From: Rikenellaceae bacterium
Lineage (GTDB): Bacteria; Bacteroidota; Bacteroidia; Bacteroidales; Rikenellaceae
Assembly (NCBI GenBank): GCA_015059685.1
Contig: SUZW01000001.1
Span: forward strand, 103,603-167,602
DNA length: 64,000 nt
Direction of reading: 5' to 3'
Shown here: positions 1 through 53,661 of the stretch, piece after piece
How the letters are laid out: every line of letters starts with the position of its first letter
Numbering within the stretch: the stretch's first letter is position 1
Program-made: the position numbers and the translations under genes
Notes under the pieces: generated by a model
What the model was told of the DNA's origin: nothing
The model's database searches: none
What the model saw: the letters and a program-made list of their open reading frames with translations, nothing else

Positions 1-3000
1 CTCTTTGTCGTTCAATGCATCGCAAGTAATCACCTCTGGCTTGCCCTTTTGGACTACATTGAATGTCCAAGTCTTTGAAGGCTGTCCCTCCATAGAGGCG
101 GTAATGGTAACGGTAGTATCGCGTGCGGAACTATCATTTTTGAGTGCGGTGTAGGTCAATTTATTTTGAGCCTTATCGAACTCGAATGAAATCCAATTAT
201 CCACAGCCACAGCCGAGATGTTCCAATCGCCTACATAGTTGAATTCAACTGTGTCGATAGGGGTTGCCTCAGTAGTAGCCTGCTCAGGAACAACTACGCT
301 CTTCGGAACGGTTACATCGGCAGGTATTACTGGTATTTCGCCCTTAACGCCTACAAGACGATAGAGGCAAACAGCCTGCTTTGCAGTTTCGCCACTATAG
401 AAGTAGTTGGAAGTTGGCTCACGGTAGTATATCTTGTAGTCCGTATCGCCAATAGTTGCCACACCATCTTCAATTGAGATTGCAAACGATGTATCAGCAT
501 TGACATAGGCTTGATTTTTGAGGTAATACGATGATGTCTTGTTCAAGAGCAGGAAGCCCTTATTAACTGCATCGTAGAACGCAAATGTACCCACTGACGA
601 GCCGTTTGCCAACACCAAAGTCTGAACATCGGCAGTTGGAGTGATATAGTAGTTACCCAACTTGGTAACAGCAACTGCACTACGACGGTCGCTCGAAATA
701 GTTGTACTCATTGCCACATCGTAATCTTTGGCAGCAATAATTACCTGGTCGTTAGCCTCGAGTGTCGAAGCGTCAGTAACCAACTCCCAAGTGTTGCCCT
801 TTGTGGTGTCTGCGCTCTGAACAACGGTAACCGAAGTTGAGAGAATGTTATCGGTGAAGGTTACAATAGCCTGACGAGGTGCGCCATCGTTAGCCTCGAA
901 TGTGAGTGTTGCCTCCTCTGCGTTAGCGGTGTATGCCACCTCTGCTCCGCTTCCAACCACCGAGCAAGAGATATCGCCGGCAGGCTCCAAAGTTCCACGC
1001 TTTGTGAGGGTAAGTTTCACGCTACCACCCTCATAGCCAACGAGGTCTTTCTCTGCGGTAGCCGAGAAGTTGTAGTAGCCCTTGCAGATAGCGCGTGCGC
1101 TGCTCGAACCACCAGTTTTTGCGCCAGATACAGCCGCTACAATAGTAACAGCATCGCCAACTTCGATATCGCTATTCTCGATGAATAGAGAGCCATTGGT
1201 CATATCAATATACTTGAAGGTTGCTACATTGCCGTTAGCATCAGCAATAGTGGTGCTACCCGCTTCGCTTGTTGCCTTCTTGGTAAGAATACCCGTAACC
1301 TCGTACTCAACATTTGGATCTACCGGTTTTTCGATAAACTGCTCAACGGTAACCTTTACAGGTGCGCCCTTCTGAACAACATTGAATGTCTTTTCTTGCG
1401 TCTCCTCGCCATCGTGAGAAGCTCGGATAGTCACAGTTGCATAACGCACCTCGTTAGGGTTTGCATCTGCTGTGTATTTGAGAACGCCATCTGCATAGTT
1501 GAGTTTGAGCCACTCGGCACTGCTCGAAACCTCGATAGCCCAATCGCCAACATAGGTAAATTCAACGCCCTCGAACTCCTGAGCCTCAGCAACTCCTCCT
1601 ATCGGAACTACAACATAATCAGCCTTATCTTCTGTATCAGGAACAGAGATTACAGCGTCAGCAGTAGGTACAGTCTCCTTCTTGCCTACCCACTTGTAGA
1701 TGCAGACATCATCGTGCTTTGCAGCGTCAATATTTGCAGCGTCAATACAAACGAAACGACGATATCCCTGGTTTGTTGTATTGTTAGGATTATAGTGGTA
1801 GAATTTCAACAATACATTATCAAACTCGCTCTCCTTTGCCTCGATAGTGGCTACACCATCAGTAACCGAAATCTCGAATGCCGAGTTCTTCGATGGATAT
1901 GCCGAGAGTTTGAGATAGTTGTCGGTCCCTGCGTTAGTAAGATATCCATTCTTTGTATCGCCCTCATAATCTACACCATTGTAGAAGTCGAATGCAGCCT
2001 TGCTTGCATCCTGCTTCGAGAGTATCAACGGCTGTACCATATACGAATACTTGCTCTTGTCGGTAACGACTGGGTGGTAGAGGTAGTCGCCCACCTTAAC
2101 AATATCGGTAGTATACGATGCGTAAAGGAAAGTAGTTGTACTGTTGCAACCCAAAACAAAGTTGTTCTTCTTCGCTGCAATAGTTACAACATCGCCCGCT
2201 TCAAGTGTCGAAGCATCACGAACAAGTACCCACTTCCCGCTTGGCTCTACGCCCTCCAAATTTACGCTAAAGAGGGTAACCATACCCGCCTCAAATACAA
2301 GCGACTTGCCCTCGGCAATACTGCCCTGCTTAACAAAGAGATGCTCATTGGTAAGAACAACAACGCTATAAGTGTTGCCTGCAACAAGAGTCTCGGGCAA
2401 CACGGTGAAATATACATCGGTCGAAGTTGTAGCAACCGATACGGTGCTAACACACTCCTTTACACTAAATGCGTGTGGGTCCTCGAGGTTTGCGCTGATG
2501 CTACCTGCAAGGTTCTTGCCATCGGCTGTAAATATCACCTTCTCGACCTGCTCGCCCTCGGGGAGATTTTTGATAGTCATCTTGGCAATAGCAGCCAAAC
2601 GGGTGAAACGCAATGGCTGTGCCTCGGTAGGCTGTGCGTCGGTTACAACCGGCATCGACACCATAAGGTCGGCGTTAGGGTCGTAAGAGGTCGCTGCTGC
2701 GTTCTGCTCTGCAGGCAAAGTGAGAACTGCCTCGCCGAGGCTGGTTGCCGAGTCAAAAGCTGCTTTTGGATAGACAGCAACATATTTATACTCTGCTTTG
2801 CCAGGGTTGATGTTGAATGTAGCGTCGATATACGCCTTCTCATCAACCTTGCTGTACTCTACCGATGTAGCCTCGGCAAGTGTCTCGGTCTGCTCGAGAA
2901 CGACAAAATCCTCGTTCTCACTCCACGAAAATAGTGGTGTGTCGCCCGTAGTATCTACCGATGTTCGTGCCTCGTCGGAGATAAAGTTGATAACAACACT

Positions 3001-3105
3001 ACTCTTTATGTCCTCGTTTGTGACCTCCTCAAAACTATTTTGGCATGCTGTAAGACCCATTGCAGCTGCTGCAACGACGGTCAAAAGTTTCATCATCTTT
3101 TTCAT
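1..3105 (-). CDS. Large secreted lipoprotein, fimbrillin-like N-terminus plus BACON-type/Ig-like repeats; C-terminus runs off the window
   Basis: Minus-strand reading frame open from ATG at 3105 (MKKMMKLLTVVAAAAMGLTACQNSFEEVTNEDIKSS...) to base 1; lipobox LTAC; repeats ending in ..DVCIYKWVG / ..AVCLYRLVG. Not in the ORF track because it has no stop inside the window. Confidence 0.85.
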   Translation of the reverse strand, partial: MKKMMKLLTVVAAAAMGLTACQNSFEEVTNEDIKSSVVINFISDEARTSVDTTGDTPLFSWSENEDFVVLEQTETLAEATSVEYSKVDEKAYIDATFNINPGKAEYKYVAVYPKAAFDSATSLGEAVLTLPAEQNAAATSYDPNADLMVSMPVVTDAQPTEAQPLRFTRLAAIAKMTIKNLPEGEQVEKVIFTADGKNLAGSISANLEDPHAFSVKECVSTVSVATTSTDVYFTVLPETLVAGNTYSVVVLTNEHLFVKQGSIAEGKSLVFEAGMVTLFSVNLEGVEPSGKWVLVRDASTLEAGDVVTIAAKKNNFVLGCNSTTTFLYASYTTDIVKVGDYLYHPVVTDKSKYSYMVQPLILSKQDASKAAFDFYNGVDYEGDTKNGYLTNAGTDNYLKLSAYPSKNSAFEISVTDGVATIEAKESEFDNVLLKFYHYNPNNTTNQGYRRFVCIDAANIDAAKHDDVCIYKWVGKKETVPTADAVISVPDTEDKADYVVVPIGGVAEAQEFEGVEFTYVGDWAIEVSSSAEWLKLNYADGVLKYTADANPNEVRYATVTIRASHDGEETQEKTFNVVQKGAPVKVTVEQFIEKPVDPNVEYEVTGILTKKATSEAGSTTIADANGNVATFKYIDMTNGSLFIENSDIEVGDAVTIVAAVSGAKTGGSSSARAICKGYYNFSATAEKDLVGYEGGSVKLTLTKRGTLEPAGDISCSVVGSGAEVAYTANAEEATLTFEANDGAPRQAIVTFTDNILSTSVTVVQSADTTKGNTWELVTDASTLEANDQVIIAAKDYDVAMSTTISSDRRSAVAVTKLGNYYITPTADVQTLVLANGSSVGTFAFYDAVNKGFLLLNKTSSYYLKNQAYVNADTSFAISIEDGVATIGDTDYKIYYREPTSNYFYSGETAKQAVCLYRLVGVKGEIPVIPADVTVPKSVVVPEQATTEATPIDTVEFNYVGDWNISAVAVDNWISFEFDKAQNKLTYTALKNDSSARDTTVTITASMEGQPSKTWTFNVVQKGKPEVITCDALNDKE

Positions 3106-3120
3106 AGTCCAATAAATTTT

Positions 3121-3273
3121 TTAGAGTTCAACTTCATCATTGATGTAGCTGGAGCCTTGTCCTGCTTCACCGATGTTACCATAGTCGGAGCTCTGAAAAA
3201 AGCCCCTCTCAACCTCCAACTCCTCGACCTCTATCGCAGGAGTTGAATACCTGTTTTGTAATAATTTTTTCAT
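3121..3273 (-). CDS. Short 50-aa peptide MKKLLQNRYSTPAIEVEELEVERGFFQSSDYGNIGEAGQGSSYINDEVEL
   Basis: Complete ATG-to-TAA frame 15 bp upstream of the BACON protein start; motif shared with the peptide at 53485-53661. Confidence 0.7.
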   Translation of the reverse strand: MKKLLQNRYSTPAIEVEELEVERGFFQSSDYGNIGEAGQGSSYINDEVEL

Positions 3274-3321: not shown

Positions 3322-5967
3322 CTACTCTTTCCACTCGTCAGGCATTGTGGCGTAGTCGGTCAAGCCTGTGCAGCCCTTGAAACAAGCTGCGTGAGCACTC
3401 TTTGAGCTTGGTACACGAGGGAAATCTTCACCCTGTACTCGCTCGTAGAGGTGAACCTTCTCCTCGCCAATAACGGTGTAAGGGCTCTCGCCTGTCAATG
3501 ACTTGCAGCCCTCGAAGCAACCGTTTATAGAGCTAATACGGCACACCGTGTCGAACAATCCCGCAGGAAGGCTCGTCAATGCCGAACAACCCTTGAAGCA
3601 ATTTGCAAAGGTTACGCTTGTGGTCGTTGTGCCGATAGCAGAGAATAGCTTTTCGGGCAAGGTCTCGAGTGCGGAACAGCCCAAGAATGCCTCCTCGAAG
3701 GTCTGAATTTTAGGGTTGCCTGCAAACAACTTCTCCGGAACGGCTTTGAGCGCAGTGCATCCCGAGAACATCCTATTTACATAAGCGAGGTTTGCGCACG
3801 AAGCCAAAAGATTTTCAGGCACGCTCTCCAATGCAGTACAACCGGTAAATGTGCCGGCAAAGTGTGTGGTTGCGGTGTTGTGTGCGAACAACTCCGCAGG
3901 GAGTGATTTCAACGATGTGCAACCCTCGAAGGTCTGCGTAAAGCGCAACTTCGCTGCACCCAGCGGCTTGAACAAATCGGCAGGGATACTCTCCAACTTC
4001 GGACAGAACGCAAAGAGTTGTGTCATCTTTGTAATTGTTGTTACCTCGGGGAAGATAGAGCCTTCAACGCTCTTCAACTCGGGACAACCATAGAAAGCAC
4101 CCTCGAAAGATGTTGAGTCGGCCTCTGTGCAGGTAACGAACAGACCCGCAGGGATACTCTCGATGCCCGAGCCAACAAAAAGACAATCCATACCGTCGGA
4201 TGCAAGTTCCGTAACATGATCGAAGAGGGTAGCAGGCACGGTTTTGAGGTTTTTGCACTCCGAGAAGAGGTAGGAGTAGTTCGCCAAGTCGTAATCTCGT
4301 ACCTCGTCGAACAGCTCCACAGGAACGCTCTCCAAAGCGGTGTTGGCAAACATATACTCAAACTCGTAAGCTGCCTTCATACCTGCCAACAAGCCGGCAG
4401 GAATGGTGCGCAACGAGGTGCAGTCGGTAAAGCAATAAGGGAACGACTTTGCTGCGGTCAAGCCCTCAAAAACGCCCGCCTCGATATCGGTAAGCGAGGT
4501 GCAGGTGTGGAAGACAGAGCCGACGGTCTTAACATTCGATAAACCTTTGAAGATGCCCTTTTTGATGCTCTGAACACCAGTGAGGCTGAAAAGATACTCC
4601 AAGTTGGTTACATTGGTACAGTTCTCGAACATCGCCACAGGTATCTCGGTAAGCGATACACAGCCCGAGAACATATACTTAATGTTGGTTGCCGAGGTGG
4701 CAGCCTTCATAAAGTTTGCAGGGATAGTCTTGAAGTTTGTACAAGCGAAGAATAGACCTTCGTAGTTTGTAGCTGCGCTGTTCTCGGCAAAAATCTTCTC
4801 CGGAACGGTGGTGATAGCGGTAGTTCCGAAGATATATTCAAACCTTGTGATGTTCGGACAGTTGCTAAACAACTTCTCAGGTACAGAGCGAAGCTTTCCA
4901 TTCGAGATAGCGTTGGAATTTTCGAGGTTGGCAGGGTAGCTGTTAAGGTAGTTGCCCGAGTTTATCTTCAACGCCTCGTTGGTAATCTTATAGTCTGTTC
5001 CCGTACCGTAGAAAGCAAAGTACATCTCCTCTGCCAACGGATTGTTGGCAAAGAGGTTTTCGGGAATTTCGCTGATAGAGGCGGTGTAGCGGAAGCAGTT
5101 CGAGAACTTCTTGGCCTCCTTGGCGTGCTGGAACAACCCCTCGGGGATAGACTTTAGCTTCTCGCAACCGAGGAATGCCGCCACAAACGAGCCTACATCT
5201 TCGAAGGAGCCTGCAACATCGGCAGGGATAGACTCCAGGTTGATGCAGCCCTTACACATATTGGCTGCATTCTTGTAGCCCATCTTGCCCCACGAGTGGA
5301 TGCGCTTCAGCTCGGGGCAGATACTATCTTCGTAGGCAAACTCGAGGTTGTGGATATCCTCGCCCGAGATGACAATGGTGTACAAACCCGGCTCGGCATA
5401 CTCCTTATATACTCGCTGACTCTCGTAGGTTGCAGGTTCACTGCCATCGCCCCAATCTACGGTCATCTTGCCACCATTTTGGTAGGTCAAGATTGGTGCA
5501 GCAACAACCTTTTGATTTGCCTCGGTGGTCTCAACCTCGTAGATAAGCTCCTCGGTGTCGGTACCAATCTGCAACACATTAATCGAGGCCTCGGCAACAT
5601 TCTCCTCTGTGCCTACTTTTACGGTTATCGACCCCTTGCGCTCGAGTTTGTCGATGCTCTCGCTGAAGGTTACAACCAAGTTGTTGTTGGAACGCTCGGC
5701 CGAAAACCACTCCTCGCCCGAGGTGGTAATCTCCCACTCCCAGTCGGGATTGACATCTACGACAACGCTCTCCACGGCACCATCGTAGTCCGCAACAACA
5801 TAGTTGCTGCCAAATTTGATATAGGCCGGCTCGGTTGGGGTGGTTGGATTAGAGGGTTCCTCTGTGTTCCCCCCCCCACCATTTGGCTCCTCTGTACCAC
5901 TGTCAGGCGTGCACGATACGGCAAACGCAACAAATAGTACTACATAGAGTAAATTCTTGATTTTCAT
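3322..5967 (-). CDS. Surface lipoprotein with BACON-like N-terminal domain and BspA/DUF285-type repeats (..GCTALESVPENLF..)
   Basis: 881-aa ORF, signal peptide/lipobox LLYVVLFVAFAVSC, many ~24-aa repeats 'F.GC..L..IP..LF'. Confidence 0.85.
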   Translation of the reverse strand: MKIKNLLYVVLFVAFAVSCTPDSGTEEPNGGGGNTEEPSNPTTPTEPAYIKFGSNYVVADYDGAVESVVVDVNPDWEWEITTSGEEWFSAERSNNNLVVTFSESIDKLERKGSITVKVGTEENVAEASINVLQIGTDTEELIYEVETTEANQKVVAAPILTYQNGGKMTVDWGDGSEPATYESQRVYKEYAEPGLYTIVISGEDIHNLEFAYEDSICPELKRIHSWGKMGYKNAANMCKGCINLESIPADVAGSFEDVGSFVAAFLGCEKLKSIPEGLFQHAKEAKKFSNCFRYTASISEIPENLFANNPLAEEMYFAFYGTGTDYKITNEALKINSGNYLNSYPANLENSNAISNGKLRSVPEKLFSNCPNITRFEYIFGTTAITTVPEKIFAENSAATNYEGLFFACTNFKTIPANFMKAATSATNIKYMFSGCVSLTEIPVAMFENCTNVTNLEYLFSLTGVQSIKKGIFKGLSNVKTVGSVFHTCTSLTDIEAGVFEGLTAAKSFPYCFTDCTSLRTIPAGLLAGMKAAYEFEYMFANTALESVPVELFDEVRDYDLANYSYLFSECKNLKTVPATLFDHVTELASDGMDCLFVGSGIESIPAGLFVTCTEADSTSFEGAFYGCPELKSVEGSIFPEVTTITKMTQLFAFCPKLESIPADLFKPLGAAKLRFTQTFEGCTSLKSLPAELFAHNTATTHFAGTFTGCTALESVPENLLASCANLAYVNRMFSGCTALKAVPEKLFAGNPKIQTFEEAFLGCSALETLPEKLFSAIGTTTTSVTFANCFKGCSALTSLPAGLFDTVCRISSINGCFEGCKSLTGESPYTVIGEEKVHLYERVQGEDFPRVPSSKSAHAACFKGCTGLTDYATMPDEWKE
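5869..5877 (-). repeat. G9 homopolymer (C9 on + strand) in the coding region just after the lipobox
   Basis: ggttcc ccccccc acc on the + strand; encodes NGGGGN. Confidence 0.9.
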
Positions 5968-6196
5968 AGATTTGTATTAGTAAATTTGATGTTTCTTAAC
6001 TTGTTAAAATGTTGCCCAAAGATTATCTAAGGATAATCCGCCTAAAACGCATTACGCTGTTTTTCTTGAAATAGATTTTGTAACTCTATCTACTATAACA
6101 AGTTGCGAATATATGGATTTTTTTGCAACTTCAAAAGTAATTACTTAATTTTTTAATTTATTTGCTATTAAAACCCAATTTTAGGCCTATCAGATT

Positions 6197-6226
6197 TTGG
6201 TTTTATGAATAAAATAGCTACCTTTG
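6197..6226 (+). promoter_or_regulatory. Bacteroidetes-type promoter TTG-N19-TACCTTTG
   Basis: TTG at 6197-6199, TACCTTTG at 6219-6226, 19-bp spacer. Confidence 0.6.
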
Positions 6227-26708: not shown

Positions 26709-26852
26709 ACCAACAAAGGTAATGATTTATCAAGAATATCAAAAATATTGAAAATATTTTTTGCATTTTCTGCCACAAAAAAGGTAGTGTCCAAAAATTT
26801 TTTTGGACACTACCCCTACGGTTAGACAGCCTCTTTTTGTGATGCGTCGTTT

Positions 26853-50588: not shown

Positions 50589-53471
50589 TCAGTTAAGTTT
50601 ATAGAGCTGAATTGCCTGCTGTCCTGAATATGAACTACTCTTGTAGTAGCGGAAACGAACCTGATTTGAAGCAGAGTTGTATCGCAAATATGCACCGCCA
50701 GTACCCTTAATTGTTATATCGTCTGCACTTGCAAATGCAATTGTGTTGTTAAGTGCTGTAGCACTCTCATCGAGTTCATTTGAGTCTGTGCTTCTTCCGA
50801 TATATTTGCCGCTTGCCGATTTGATAGAGTAGTTTGCATCACCGCTCTTGGCAATGGTAAATGCAATAGCTTTCATTGCATCGGTTGCCTCAATCTGATT
50901 GTTGCTAATTGTAACGGTCTTTGTGTTACCGACAGCGTCGAGAGTCGCAAGACTACCATCAAATGCCACCTTGCCGGTCTCGTAAACGATAAGGTATGTA
51001 CCACTCCAATCACTTGGTGTCGAAGTAACCTTAACGAAGTGTGTGCCTCCCTGCTCTGGCTCATCGCCACCACCGGTGTTGCCGGCAGCCTGCGAAATGG
51101 TTACGGTCTGGCTCTCTGCACCCTCGTATGAGAGTGTTACAGTTGCCTCACGCGCTGCACCTGTGTTCTCGTCAACATAGAAAGTTACATCTGTGCTGCT
51201 AACCTCAAAGCCATGAACCCAAGTCTGATTAGCCGAAGCGGTTACGCTCTGACCAACAACAGGGTTTGTAATGGTATAAGTGATAGTTGGAACATCACCC
51301 GCAGCTGCAACATTAATAGTAGTAGCCGAAGTTACAGCCAATACCGGAGCAGGGGTCTCTGGTGTCTCGCCACCCTCGCTGCTACCGCCATAAGTTACGG
51401 TAAGAGCATCAAGGTACACCTTAGCCGAAAGTTTCGCAATTACTACACTTTCAACTGCAGTACTATATTCAATAGTTACCTTATCGCTACTTACAGTAAC
51501 TGTTGCTCCGCTTGGAGTGCCAATTGAAGAGTTCAATGCATTTGCATAAGAGCTGCTATTTGCATCAAATACAATCTTTGTGATATTGCTTGGTGCAGTA
51601 ACTGTGATTGAAGAACCAGAGTATAAACGAACTGGATTCGAATAATTTGCTACATTTGATGAAGCACTTGCCTTGTTGTTTACGAATGTAATACCATCAT
51701 TTGACCAAGTCTGCTGGTTGTTATCCTGGCTAAGACGCTGTGCGGTGCTTGCAAACGATATTGTTCCTTCTCCGGACACTACCTCGCCAGCAGCCTGCTT
51801 CTTGTTCTGCGTAATAGTGAATGTAGTAGTAACATTCTCATAGTCTGCCTTTGTAGCAGTTACATTTACAGTTGCTGTACGCTCCTCAGTCTCGCTCTCG
51901 TTAACAGTTGCAGAGAAGGTAATCTTGCCATCAGCATAAGCGAGGTCCGACACCCAAGTATCATCGGTAGTAGCAGTGATTGCCCAACCGTCGCTATTGG
52001 TTGTAGTAACAGCAACCTCGCCACTTGTTGCATCGTGTGCGATAACTGCATTAGCAACCGAAAGGGTGATTGCAGGATCCTTTACAACATACTCGCCAAC
52101 AAGCTTGTAGATGCAGATATCCTGCATACCACTGCTGTAGCAAGAGAAACGAGGATTACTGTTGTTGTATTTCACAATGTTTCGAGTGTTTGAACCCTGT
52201 GCAGTAACAGTTGCAACACCATTCTCGCCAATAGTGATAGCAAACGAAGCGTTCGCATCTATAGTTGTCTGTGACTTCAAGTTGTTGGAACTCGAGCTTG
52301 CTGCATAGAGATATTTGTTATCCGAAGTCTGGAATGCGAATGTACCCTCAACCGAACCCTCTACCAGGGTGAGAACCTCTACGGTAGAATCAATCTCGAT
52401 AGTGCTGTTTTCGTTCTTGGTGATAGCAACAGCATCGCGGTAGTCGCCATTCTGCTTACCCATAGCCACATTGTAGCCCGCTGCAGCAATAACAACCTTA
52501 TCACCAACGGCCAAGCCTGTGATGTTAGGAACGAGGTTGTAGGCGTTGTCCACCCACTCGATAGTCTCAATCTCCTCTACATTATTCGTGTCGAGCGATA
52601 CATTCAAAGTAGTAACCTTACCCCTTGCCAAGTCGATATCTTGCGACAAAGTAATCTCCTTTGTGATTGTATAGCCCTCGGTCTGAGCATTGAAAGTGAG
52701 TTTTGAACCCGAAGCCAAAGTCTGTGGATAAACAATAATATAGGTTGCGTTTGCATTGTCCATCTCATACTGAGTAGCCTCGGTGTAAATTGCGGTTACG
52801 GTATTAGATTCTCCATAATACAAGCCCTCTTCCTCGTTGAGTTTCTGATTTACGACATCAAGATACACACGACCGGTAAGGTTTGACGCTGCAGTCATAG
52901 CAAGCGTTTTCACATGCTGACCAGCCAAAGTAGAGGTATTATCCTTCAATACAACCTTTACAATTGCACCCAAGCGAGCAAACTCCAAATCCGAGAGTTG
53001 GTTACCCTCTGCATCGAGTGTTACAGGCTTTGCAATCATAATATCAGCCTTACCATCAAACGAAGTTGCAGTAGGAGCCTGCTGAGTAGGTATATCTACC
53101 TTTGCTCCCAAAGCTGCGATACCATTCGTTGTGTATGGATAGTAAACATAGAGAGTGTTAGACAAAGCGGTAGTACCTGTAAAGGTTGTTATAGTCGCAC
53201 GCTCTGTTGCATCATTAGTCAAATAATAGTTGTCTGCATCTTTCTCTTGTGCAGTATAAACACCAATCATATCGCCTACGCTCCAATATGGAGTTGTTCC
53301 CTCCAACTCGGTACGATTTTCAGATACAACAGTTGGTTTGTCTGCTGTAAGGGTTACCTTTACGAGGTTTGTGTCACCATTAACGGTTGTGTCGTTAAAG
53401 TTGTTCTCGCACGATACGAGAGCAGTTGCTGCAACTGCCCAAAGCATCATTTTTGTAAAAATCTTCTTCAT
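50589..53471 (-). CDS. Large secreted lipoprotein, fimbrillin-like N-terminus and BACON repeats
   Basis: MKKIFTKMMLWAVAATALVSCENNFND..; BACON-like segment TTNSDGWAITATTDDTWVSDLAYADGKITFSATVN; ends ..SGQQAIQLYKLN*. Confidence 0.85.
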   Translation of the reverse strand: MKKIFTKMMLWAVAATALVSCENNFNDTTVNGDTNLVKVTLTADKPTVVSENRTELEGTTPYWSVGDMIGVYTAQEKDADNYYLTNDATERATITTFTGTTALSNTLYVYYPYTTNGIAALGAKVDIPTQQAPTATSFDGKADIMIAKPVTLDAEGNQLSDLEFARLGAIVKVVLKDNTSTLAGQHVKTLAMTAASNLTGRVYLDVVNQKLNEEEGLYYGESNTVTAIYTEATQYEMDNANATYIIVYPQTLASGSKLTFNAQTEGYTITKEITLSQDIDLARGKVTTLNVSLDTNNVEEIETIEWVDNAYNLVPNITGLAVGDKVVIAAAGYNVAMGKQNGDYRDAVAITKNENSTIEIDSTVEVLTLVEGSVEGTFAFQTSDNKYLYAASSSSNNLKSQTTIDANASFAITIGENGVATVTAQGSNTRNIVKYNNSNPRFSCYSSGMQDICIYKLVGEYVVKDPAITLSVANAVIAHDATSGEVAVTTTNSDGWAITATTDDTWVSDLAYADGKITFSATVNESETEERTATVNVTATKADYENVTTTFTITQNKKQAAGEVVSGEGTISFASTAQRLSQDNNQQTWSNDGITFVNNKASASSNVANYSNPVRLYSGSSITVTAPSNITKIVFDANSSSYANALNSSIGTPSGATVTVSSDKVTIEYSTAVESVVIAKLSAKVYLDALTVTYGGSSEGGETPETPAPVLAVTSATTINVAAAGDVPTITYTITNPVVGQSVTASANQTWVHGFEVSSTDVTFYVDENTGAAREATVTLSYEGAESQTVTISQAAGNTGGGDEPEQGGTHFVKVTSTPSDWSGTYLIVYETGKVAFDGSLATLDAVGNTKTVTISNNQIEATDAMKAIAFTIAKSGDANYSIKSASGKYIGRSTDSNELDESATALNNTIAFASADDITIKGTGGAYLRYNSASNQVRFRYYKSSSYSGQQAIQLYKLN

Positions 53472-53484
53472 AGCATTGCAGTTT

Positions 53485-53661
53485 TTAGAGTTCATAAGAA
53501 TTACCGTTTTCAATAGCTCCCGCAGCACCCTCATTTCCGTATGTCAAATCGGGGTTCTGCGACACAAAGAATCCTGCCTCGGCTTTCACGAAGCAGACCT
53601 CGACAGTAGGTGCGGCATAGCCCCCTTCCGCAAGGTTTTTCATAAGGTCTAATTTGTTCAT
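53485..53661 (-). CDS. Short 58-aa peptide MNKLDLMKNLAEGGYAAPTVEVCFVKAEAGFFVSQNPDLTYGNEGAAGAIENGNSYEL
   Basis: Complete ATG-to-TAA frame directly upstream of, and possibly overlapping, the start of the BACON protein; motif shared with 3121-3273. Confidence 0.72.
   Translation of the reverse strand: MNKLDLMKNLAEGGYAAPTVEVCFVKAEAGFFVSQNPDLTYGNEGAAGAIENGNSYEL

Follow-up and report, generated by a model that had tools for sequence, protein, structure and literature searches.

The window analysed here, which is the whole 64,000-nucleotide stretch of Rikenellaceae DNA, contains two copies of a short open reading frame (ORF), both on the minus strand and both lying immediately 5' of a lipoprotein gene. 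The two copies, their segments and their flanking genes are as follows.

1–3105, minus strand: BACON-domain surface lipoprotein (Pfam BACON, 6.7e-7), beginning with the ATG at 3105, 15 nt 3' of copy 1; the protein is 1380 aa in the genome, and the gene is cut by the window edge (full gene in L197).
3121–3273, minus strand: peptide copy 1, 50 aa, probable RiPP-type precursor (translation; family HMM, 44.7 bits).
3190–3249, minus strand: conserved, leader-like segment of copy 1, residues Y9–S28 (YSTPAIEVEELEVERGFFQS; motif statistics from 149 distinct members, and pN/pS).
3124–3189, minus strand: variable G/D/E-rich tail of copy 1, residues 29–50, candidate core (composition and tail pN/pS).
3322–5967, minus strand: BspA-type LRR lipoprotein, 881 aa (Pfam LRR_5, 1.4e-10), 48 nt 5' of copy 1.
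50589–53471, minus strand: lipoprotein 3' of copy 2, 960 aa from the ATG at 53471, with a 13-nt gap (lipoprotein-type N-terminus).
53485–53643, minus strand: peptide copy 2, 52 aa from MKNL (family HMM, 37.0 bits); an in-frame ATG at 53661 would extend the peptide to 58 aa.
53560–53619, minus strand: conserved, leader-like segment of copy 2, residues Y9–S28 (YAAPTVEVCFVKAEAGFFVS; motif statistics).

Copy 1 translates exactly as given in a preliminary description of this DNA, and the second copy that the description reported, with the same motif and likewise 5' of a lipoprotein gene, is also present. A family profile made from relatives, with all copies of the window's own genome left out, picks exactly these two ORFs from the window; the best score reached by the same profile in 20 shuffled windows is 11.1. 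The peptide itself has no match in Pfam or NCBIfam, and searches of PHROGs, Pfam, NCBIfam and PDB yielded no confident family for it. Its usual neighbours are the fimbrillin, BACON and BspA lipoprotein genes of Bacteroidales; the peptide itself carries no signal peptide or lipobox, and shows no similarity to these lipoproteins. Bacteroidetes-type promoter patterns (TTTG-N17-23-TAnnTTTG) occur six times in the window where 0.93 are expected, for example at 6196–6226 (plus strand) and 26714–26743 (minus strand). None of the six directly precedes either peptide.

The preliminary description took the two copies to be a two-member family. The family is in fact far larger: the window's genome holds 12 matches to the profile (11 of them strong), and there are hundreds in the genus, where the peptide occurs in 140 of 180 genomes with up to 24 copies in each. 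With absence defined throughout by a score threshold, the wider sets gave 13 positive genomes among 394 of the order and 3 among 389 of the class (the window's genome counted in). Several other families of Bacteroidales contain members, and the named matches include Alistipes, Phocaeicola massiliensis, P. faecalis, Bacteroides rodentium and Mediterranea massiliensis. Judging by these names, the genus to which the window belongs is probably Alistipes. A further peptide–lipoprotein pair lies on a short contig labelled Lachnospiraceae (L164), which is probably a Bacteroidales contaminant. A phage origin was considered and rejected, since viral contigs contain no relatives of the peptide.

Comparison of the members reveals two distinct parts. 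Firstly, the front of the peptide follows the consensus Y-x-x-P-x-[VIL]-E-[VI]-x-E-[VI]-x-V-E-x-G-F-[AS]-x-S. Among 149 distinct members, the tyrosine is conserved in 98%, the proline in 100%, the glutamate at +13 in 97% and the glycine at +15 in 97%; within the GFAxS part, F, A and S are found in 92%, 74% and 94%, respectively. Secondly, the consensus is followed by a variable tail (median of 17 residues in the same members), which is rich in G, D and E, has almost no cysteine, and in half of the members carries a tryptophan among the last four residues. The two parts also differ in their rate of change, with a pN/pS of 0.27 in the conserved segment versus 0.53 in the tail. The family is thus, as in RiPP precursors, genetically encoded with a conserved, leader-like front and a variable, core-like end. 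Two divergent peptides, MKQKRSYEVPRTELV... (L239:14865–15044) and MKKEYIAPLTEKTEV... (L249:9707–9892), were seen between Wzc and a fimbrillin-like lipoprotein, in polysaccharide loci with PqqD, nucleotidyltransferase and kinase genes; the profile applied here probably captures just part of the superfamily.

The family evolves as protein-coding sequence. Across 19 independent pairs, substitutions fall on codon positions 1, 2 and 3 in the ratio 103/95/227 (p = 2e-17), so that synonymous change exceeds non-synonymous change, as the preliminary description had anticipated for a genuine peptide. That copy 1 is a chance or artefactual ORF might be suspected from its shortness and from the lack of a Pfam or NCBIfam match, but this reading is rejected, with a probability that we put close to zero: the score of the independent profile lies well above that of the best shuffle, the third-position excess is strong, and the ORF is conserved in hundreds of loci.

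We next consider the genes beside the peptide. Where the next gene starts within 80 nt of the peptide, it encodes a lipoprotein N-terminus in 122 of 128 cases, compared with 54 of 410 other genes of the same loci (lipoproteins being called by pattern rather than by a trained predictor). The median gap from peptide to next gene is 22 nt. Neighbour families, where recognised, are fimbrillin-like, BspA LRR or DUF4465. These counts bear out the earlier expectation of homologues 5' of similar lipoproteins, and they support a real, conserved peptide family that adjoins surface-protein genes and is probably co-transcribed with them. The expected position 5' of a surface-protein gene holds for both window copies, but not for several paralogues of the same genome, which follow a lipoprotein gene instead: the C17 and C2 copies lie 3' of a lipoprotein with no lipoprotein after them, and C29 shows the same order. 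In another part of the genome (C12; L193:2205–10547), two large lipoprotein genes flank a family peptide, which is located 3' of a gene that looks SusD-like by sequence. Five 12-kb loci (L184, L190, L118, L172 and L187) contain at least two family peptides each, most of which adjoin a lipoprotein gene. Each product probably works with, or on, one particular surface lipoprotein.

Two simpler explanations could account for such an arrangement. The first is that the ORF is a cis-acting leader, the translation of which merely couples or attenuates expression of the downstream lipoprotein. The short, conserved gap to the next start fits this, as does the lack of a terminator between peptide and lipoprotein gene. 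An attenuator or coupling leader should, however, always lie 5' and be largely free in sequence; here, selection acts on the amino-acid motif, and a purely cis-acting role is unlikely because the C17, C2 and C29 copies follow a lipoprotein. The second explanation is that the peptide is an unmodified small protein, a cytoplasmic partner or chaperone of the adjoining lipoprotein, and that any co-occurrence with modifying enzymes is indirect. The strong enrichment of lipoproteins among the next genes is what this would predict. Both explanations must also be weighed against the distribution of a set of enzymes, described below.

Within the genus, a PqqD protein (PF05402) occurs in 138 of 180 genomes and agrees with the presence or absence of the peptide in 172 (135 with both and 37 with neither), while an HPr-kinase-like protein occurs in 133 and agrees with the peptide in 167 (130 and 37). 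All disagreements between the peptide and the PqqD or kinase fall in genomes that are less than 90% complete; they include three incomplete genomes with PqqD and kinase in which the peptide was not detected. Among the better genomes, 54 have peptide, PqqD and kinase, and 16 have none of the three. A ParE tree of 109 genomes requires at least 11 changes in the state of the peptide (gains or losses) on supported branches. Of 11 independent pairs, 10.9 show PqqD changing with the peptide and 10.3 show the same for the kinase, never in the opposite way (p about 0.001–0.002). Elsewhere in the order, in other families, 10 of 12 peptide-positive genomes carry the kinase (E<1e-50), versus 4 of 68 peptide-negative ones. 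Some kinase-positive genomes of the order are without a detected peptide.

All five enzymes are present in the window's genome, unlinked from the peptide and at three loci: (i) ABC exporter–kinase–S26 peptidase at C9 (L257), (ii) PqqD at C19 (L219), and (iii) NTP_transf_5 at C33 (L258). This scattering is typical of the genus, while in other genera the genes form one-operon clusters. The arrangements observed are:

L242: peptide–kinase–S26–PqqD–nucleotidyltransferase–ABC, on one strand.
L174: the same gene set as L242.
Phocaeicola massiliensis (DSM 17679; L117) and P. faecalis: peptide–1086-aa lipoprotein–PqqD–nucleotidyltransferase–ABC.
L227: S26–kinase–ABC–PqqD, divergent from peptide–lipoprotein.
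L249, a polysaccharide locus: PqqD–nucleotidyltransferase–kinase–Wza–Wzc–peptide–lipoprotein–OmpA–S26–ABC.

The enzymes are thus tied to the precursor both by operons (L242, L174, L117, L227) and by co-loss in the genus. A cis-acting leader leaves unexplained its co-loss with unlinked PqqD and kinase genes, or its operons with them, and we regard that explanation as improbable. The chaperone explanation is likewise unlikely: it accounts neither for the shared operons and the at least 11 concordant gains or losses, nor for the lasso-like leader described next. Of the three roles first suggested for the peptide, secretion or processing accords best with the data: the family is found together with a lasso-type recognition protein and kinase, and in some genera peptidase and exporter genes belong to the same operon as the peptide. 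A role purely in translation coupling is a poor fit, given the copies that follow a lipoprotein gene.

The first hint of a lasso link was a weak match of two members to the paeninodin lasso-precursor model. Published lasso precursors carry a YxxPxL motif (as defined in PMC10368454) in a leader to which a PqqD-type B1 protein binds; for some of them, phosphorylation by an HPr-kinase-like enzyme and further modification by a nucleotidyltransferase have been described (PMC10368454, PMC8498205, PMC7533575). In an hhalign comparison of the family with published lasso precursors, the YxxPx[VIL] stretch aligned over 15 columns (E = 1.8e-4), and a lasso profile reaches at least 8 bits in 22% of members versus 0.07% of shuffles. 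The front of the peptide carries a leader motif of the YxxPxL type, with the near-invariant tyrosine and proline given above and [VIL] at +5 across the 149 members.

The proteins that travel with the peptide point in the same direction. Against PDB sequences, the PqqD profile matches TfuB1 (1.1e-8) and also TbiB1. The six best fold matches of the predicted P. massiliensis PqqD (pLDDT 79.6) are all lasso B1–leader complexes (5v1u, 5v1v, 6jx3), so that the protein, a PF05402 match with a modelled beta3–alpha3 fold like that of B1, appears to be a stand-alone RRE of the lasso B1 kind. In the kinase of the window's genome, residues H140, G155, G158, G160, K161, S162, D180 and D181 form the pattern H-15-G-3-G-2-GKS...DD, which is the one published for BsfK and marks a lasso-type kinase; its database matches are weak (ScmC/HprK-related), and its single-sequence structure prediction has a pLDDT of 35. 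The nucleotidyltransferase is of the NTP_transf_5 type, the S26 protein is similar to both signal peptidase I and the nickel-SOD maturation protease, and the exporter resembles MsbA/PglK-type ABC proteins. PqqD itself has a further setting: a genus-wide operon of metal-uptake-like genes combines it with a small Cys/His-rich membrane protein, a TonB receptor and a heavy-metal-associated protein (L219:7868–11551; L220–L230). Since the sole PqqD of most genus genomes lies in this operon, it may serve another substrate or have a second role.

Is the peptide, then, a genuine lasso peptide precursor? The YxxPx[VIL] leader, the lasso-B1-like PqqD, the lasso-type kinase, the nucleotidyltransferase and the ABC exporter would all suit one, but we consider this very unlikely. 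None of the 180 genus genomes yielded the lasso protease B2 (PF13471), for which control genomes were positive, and the clusters that were inspected contained neither a recognisable B2 nor a recognisable lasso cyclase. The family lacks the Thr(-2) (or Ile/Val) reported in lasso precursors, the conserved residues of this region being the E at +13 and the G at +15 (each in 97% of 149 members), and an acid at core positions 7–9, counted from G, is found in only 98 of the 149. The lasso peptide class is therefore rejected, and the likeness is confined to the steps of recognition and tailoring.

We consider it likely, with good though incomplete confidence, that the ORF encodes the precursor of a RiPP-type system with lasso-type recognition, a kinase, S26 leader removal, ABC export and a lipoprotein partner. 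The best reading of the data is that the precursors are matured in trans, by lasso-type recognition and tailoring without the lasso protease. The leader, from Y9 to about S28, would bind the lasso-B1-like PqqD encoded elsewhere in the genome, and PqqD would present the precursor to the HPr-kinase-like enzyme of the lasso-kinase type. The kinase would phosphorylate the precursor, with the near-invariant serine of GF-[AS]-x-S as the probable target, and the NTP_transf_5 nucleotidyltransferase may extend this mark by attaching another group. Leader removal would then fall to a soluble, S24/S26 signal-peptidase-like enzyme, which may cut at the G-x-A box: in most members this box obeys signal-peptidase rules, but the two window copies match poorly, reading GFF here. 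The dedicated ABC exporter would take the acidic, G/D/E-rich product out, where the lipoprotein made alongside may act as surface partner, anchor or receptor.

Most probably, then, the ORF supplies the precursor of a previously undescribed peptide that is modified, exported and produced beside surface lipoproteins. We lean, with less assurance, towards the view that Bacteroidales have here a new class of RiPP, consisting of linear peptides that are phosphorylated and possibly also nucleotidyl- or sugar-modified. These would combine lasso-type recognition with an S26 leader peptidase, and a single shared enzyme set would serve at least 12 scattered precursors, each paired with its own surface lipoprotein. 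Literature searches of openly licensed full texts found no description of such a system. If correct, this interpretation would (i) add a previously unlisted modified-peptide system to common gut bacteria (Alistipes, Phocaeicola, Bacteroides and relatives), (ii) provide a case in which enzymes of lasso-type recognition and tailoring operate with no lasso protease, and (iii) tie small, unannotated ORFs to the large and poorly understood repertoire of fimbrillin/BACON lipoproteins. It is directly testable, because named cultured species such as Phocaeicola massiliensis carry the genes.

Three known systems come closest. The phosphorylated lasso peptides (the paeninodin, pseudomycoidin and BsfA systems) share the YxxPxL-like leader, a stand-alone PqqD/RRE close to B1, a BsfK-pattern kinase, an NTP_transf_5-type nucleotidyltransferase and an ABC exporter (PMC10368454, PMC8498205, PMC7533575). 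Unlike them, the present system lacks the transglutaminase-like B2 in the 180 genomes and a recognised cyclase gene in the inspected clusters; it has an S26-type peptidase instead, and many precursors scattered beside lipoprotein genes. The double-glycine/PCAT RiPPs of Bacteroidales (PMC10352776) come from the same order and likewise have short precursors with a conserved front and a variable end, but the family described here has no GG motif, its inspected clusters show no radical SAM protein, YcaO or peptidase-containing transporter (PCAT), and its exporter resembles the MsbA/PglK type. Finally, the kinases weakly match the NCBI models for 'HprK-related kinase A' and SynChlorMet ScmC systems, with scores far below the cut-offs; compared with these systems, the one described here has in addition the precursor, the S26 peptidase and the pairing with lipoproteins.
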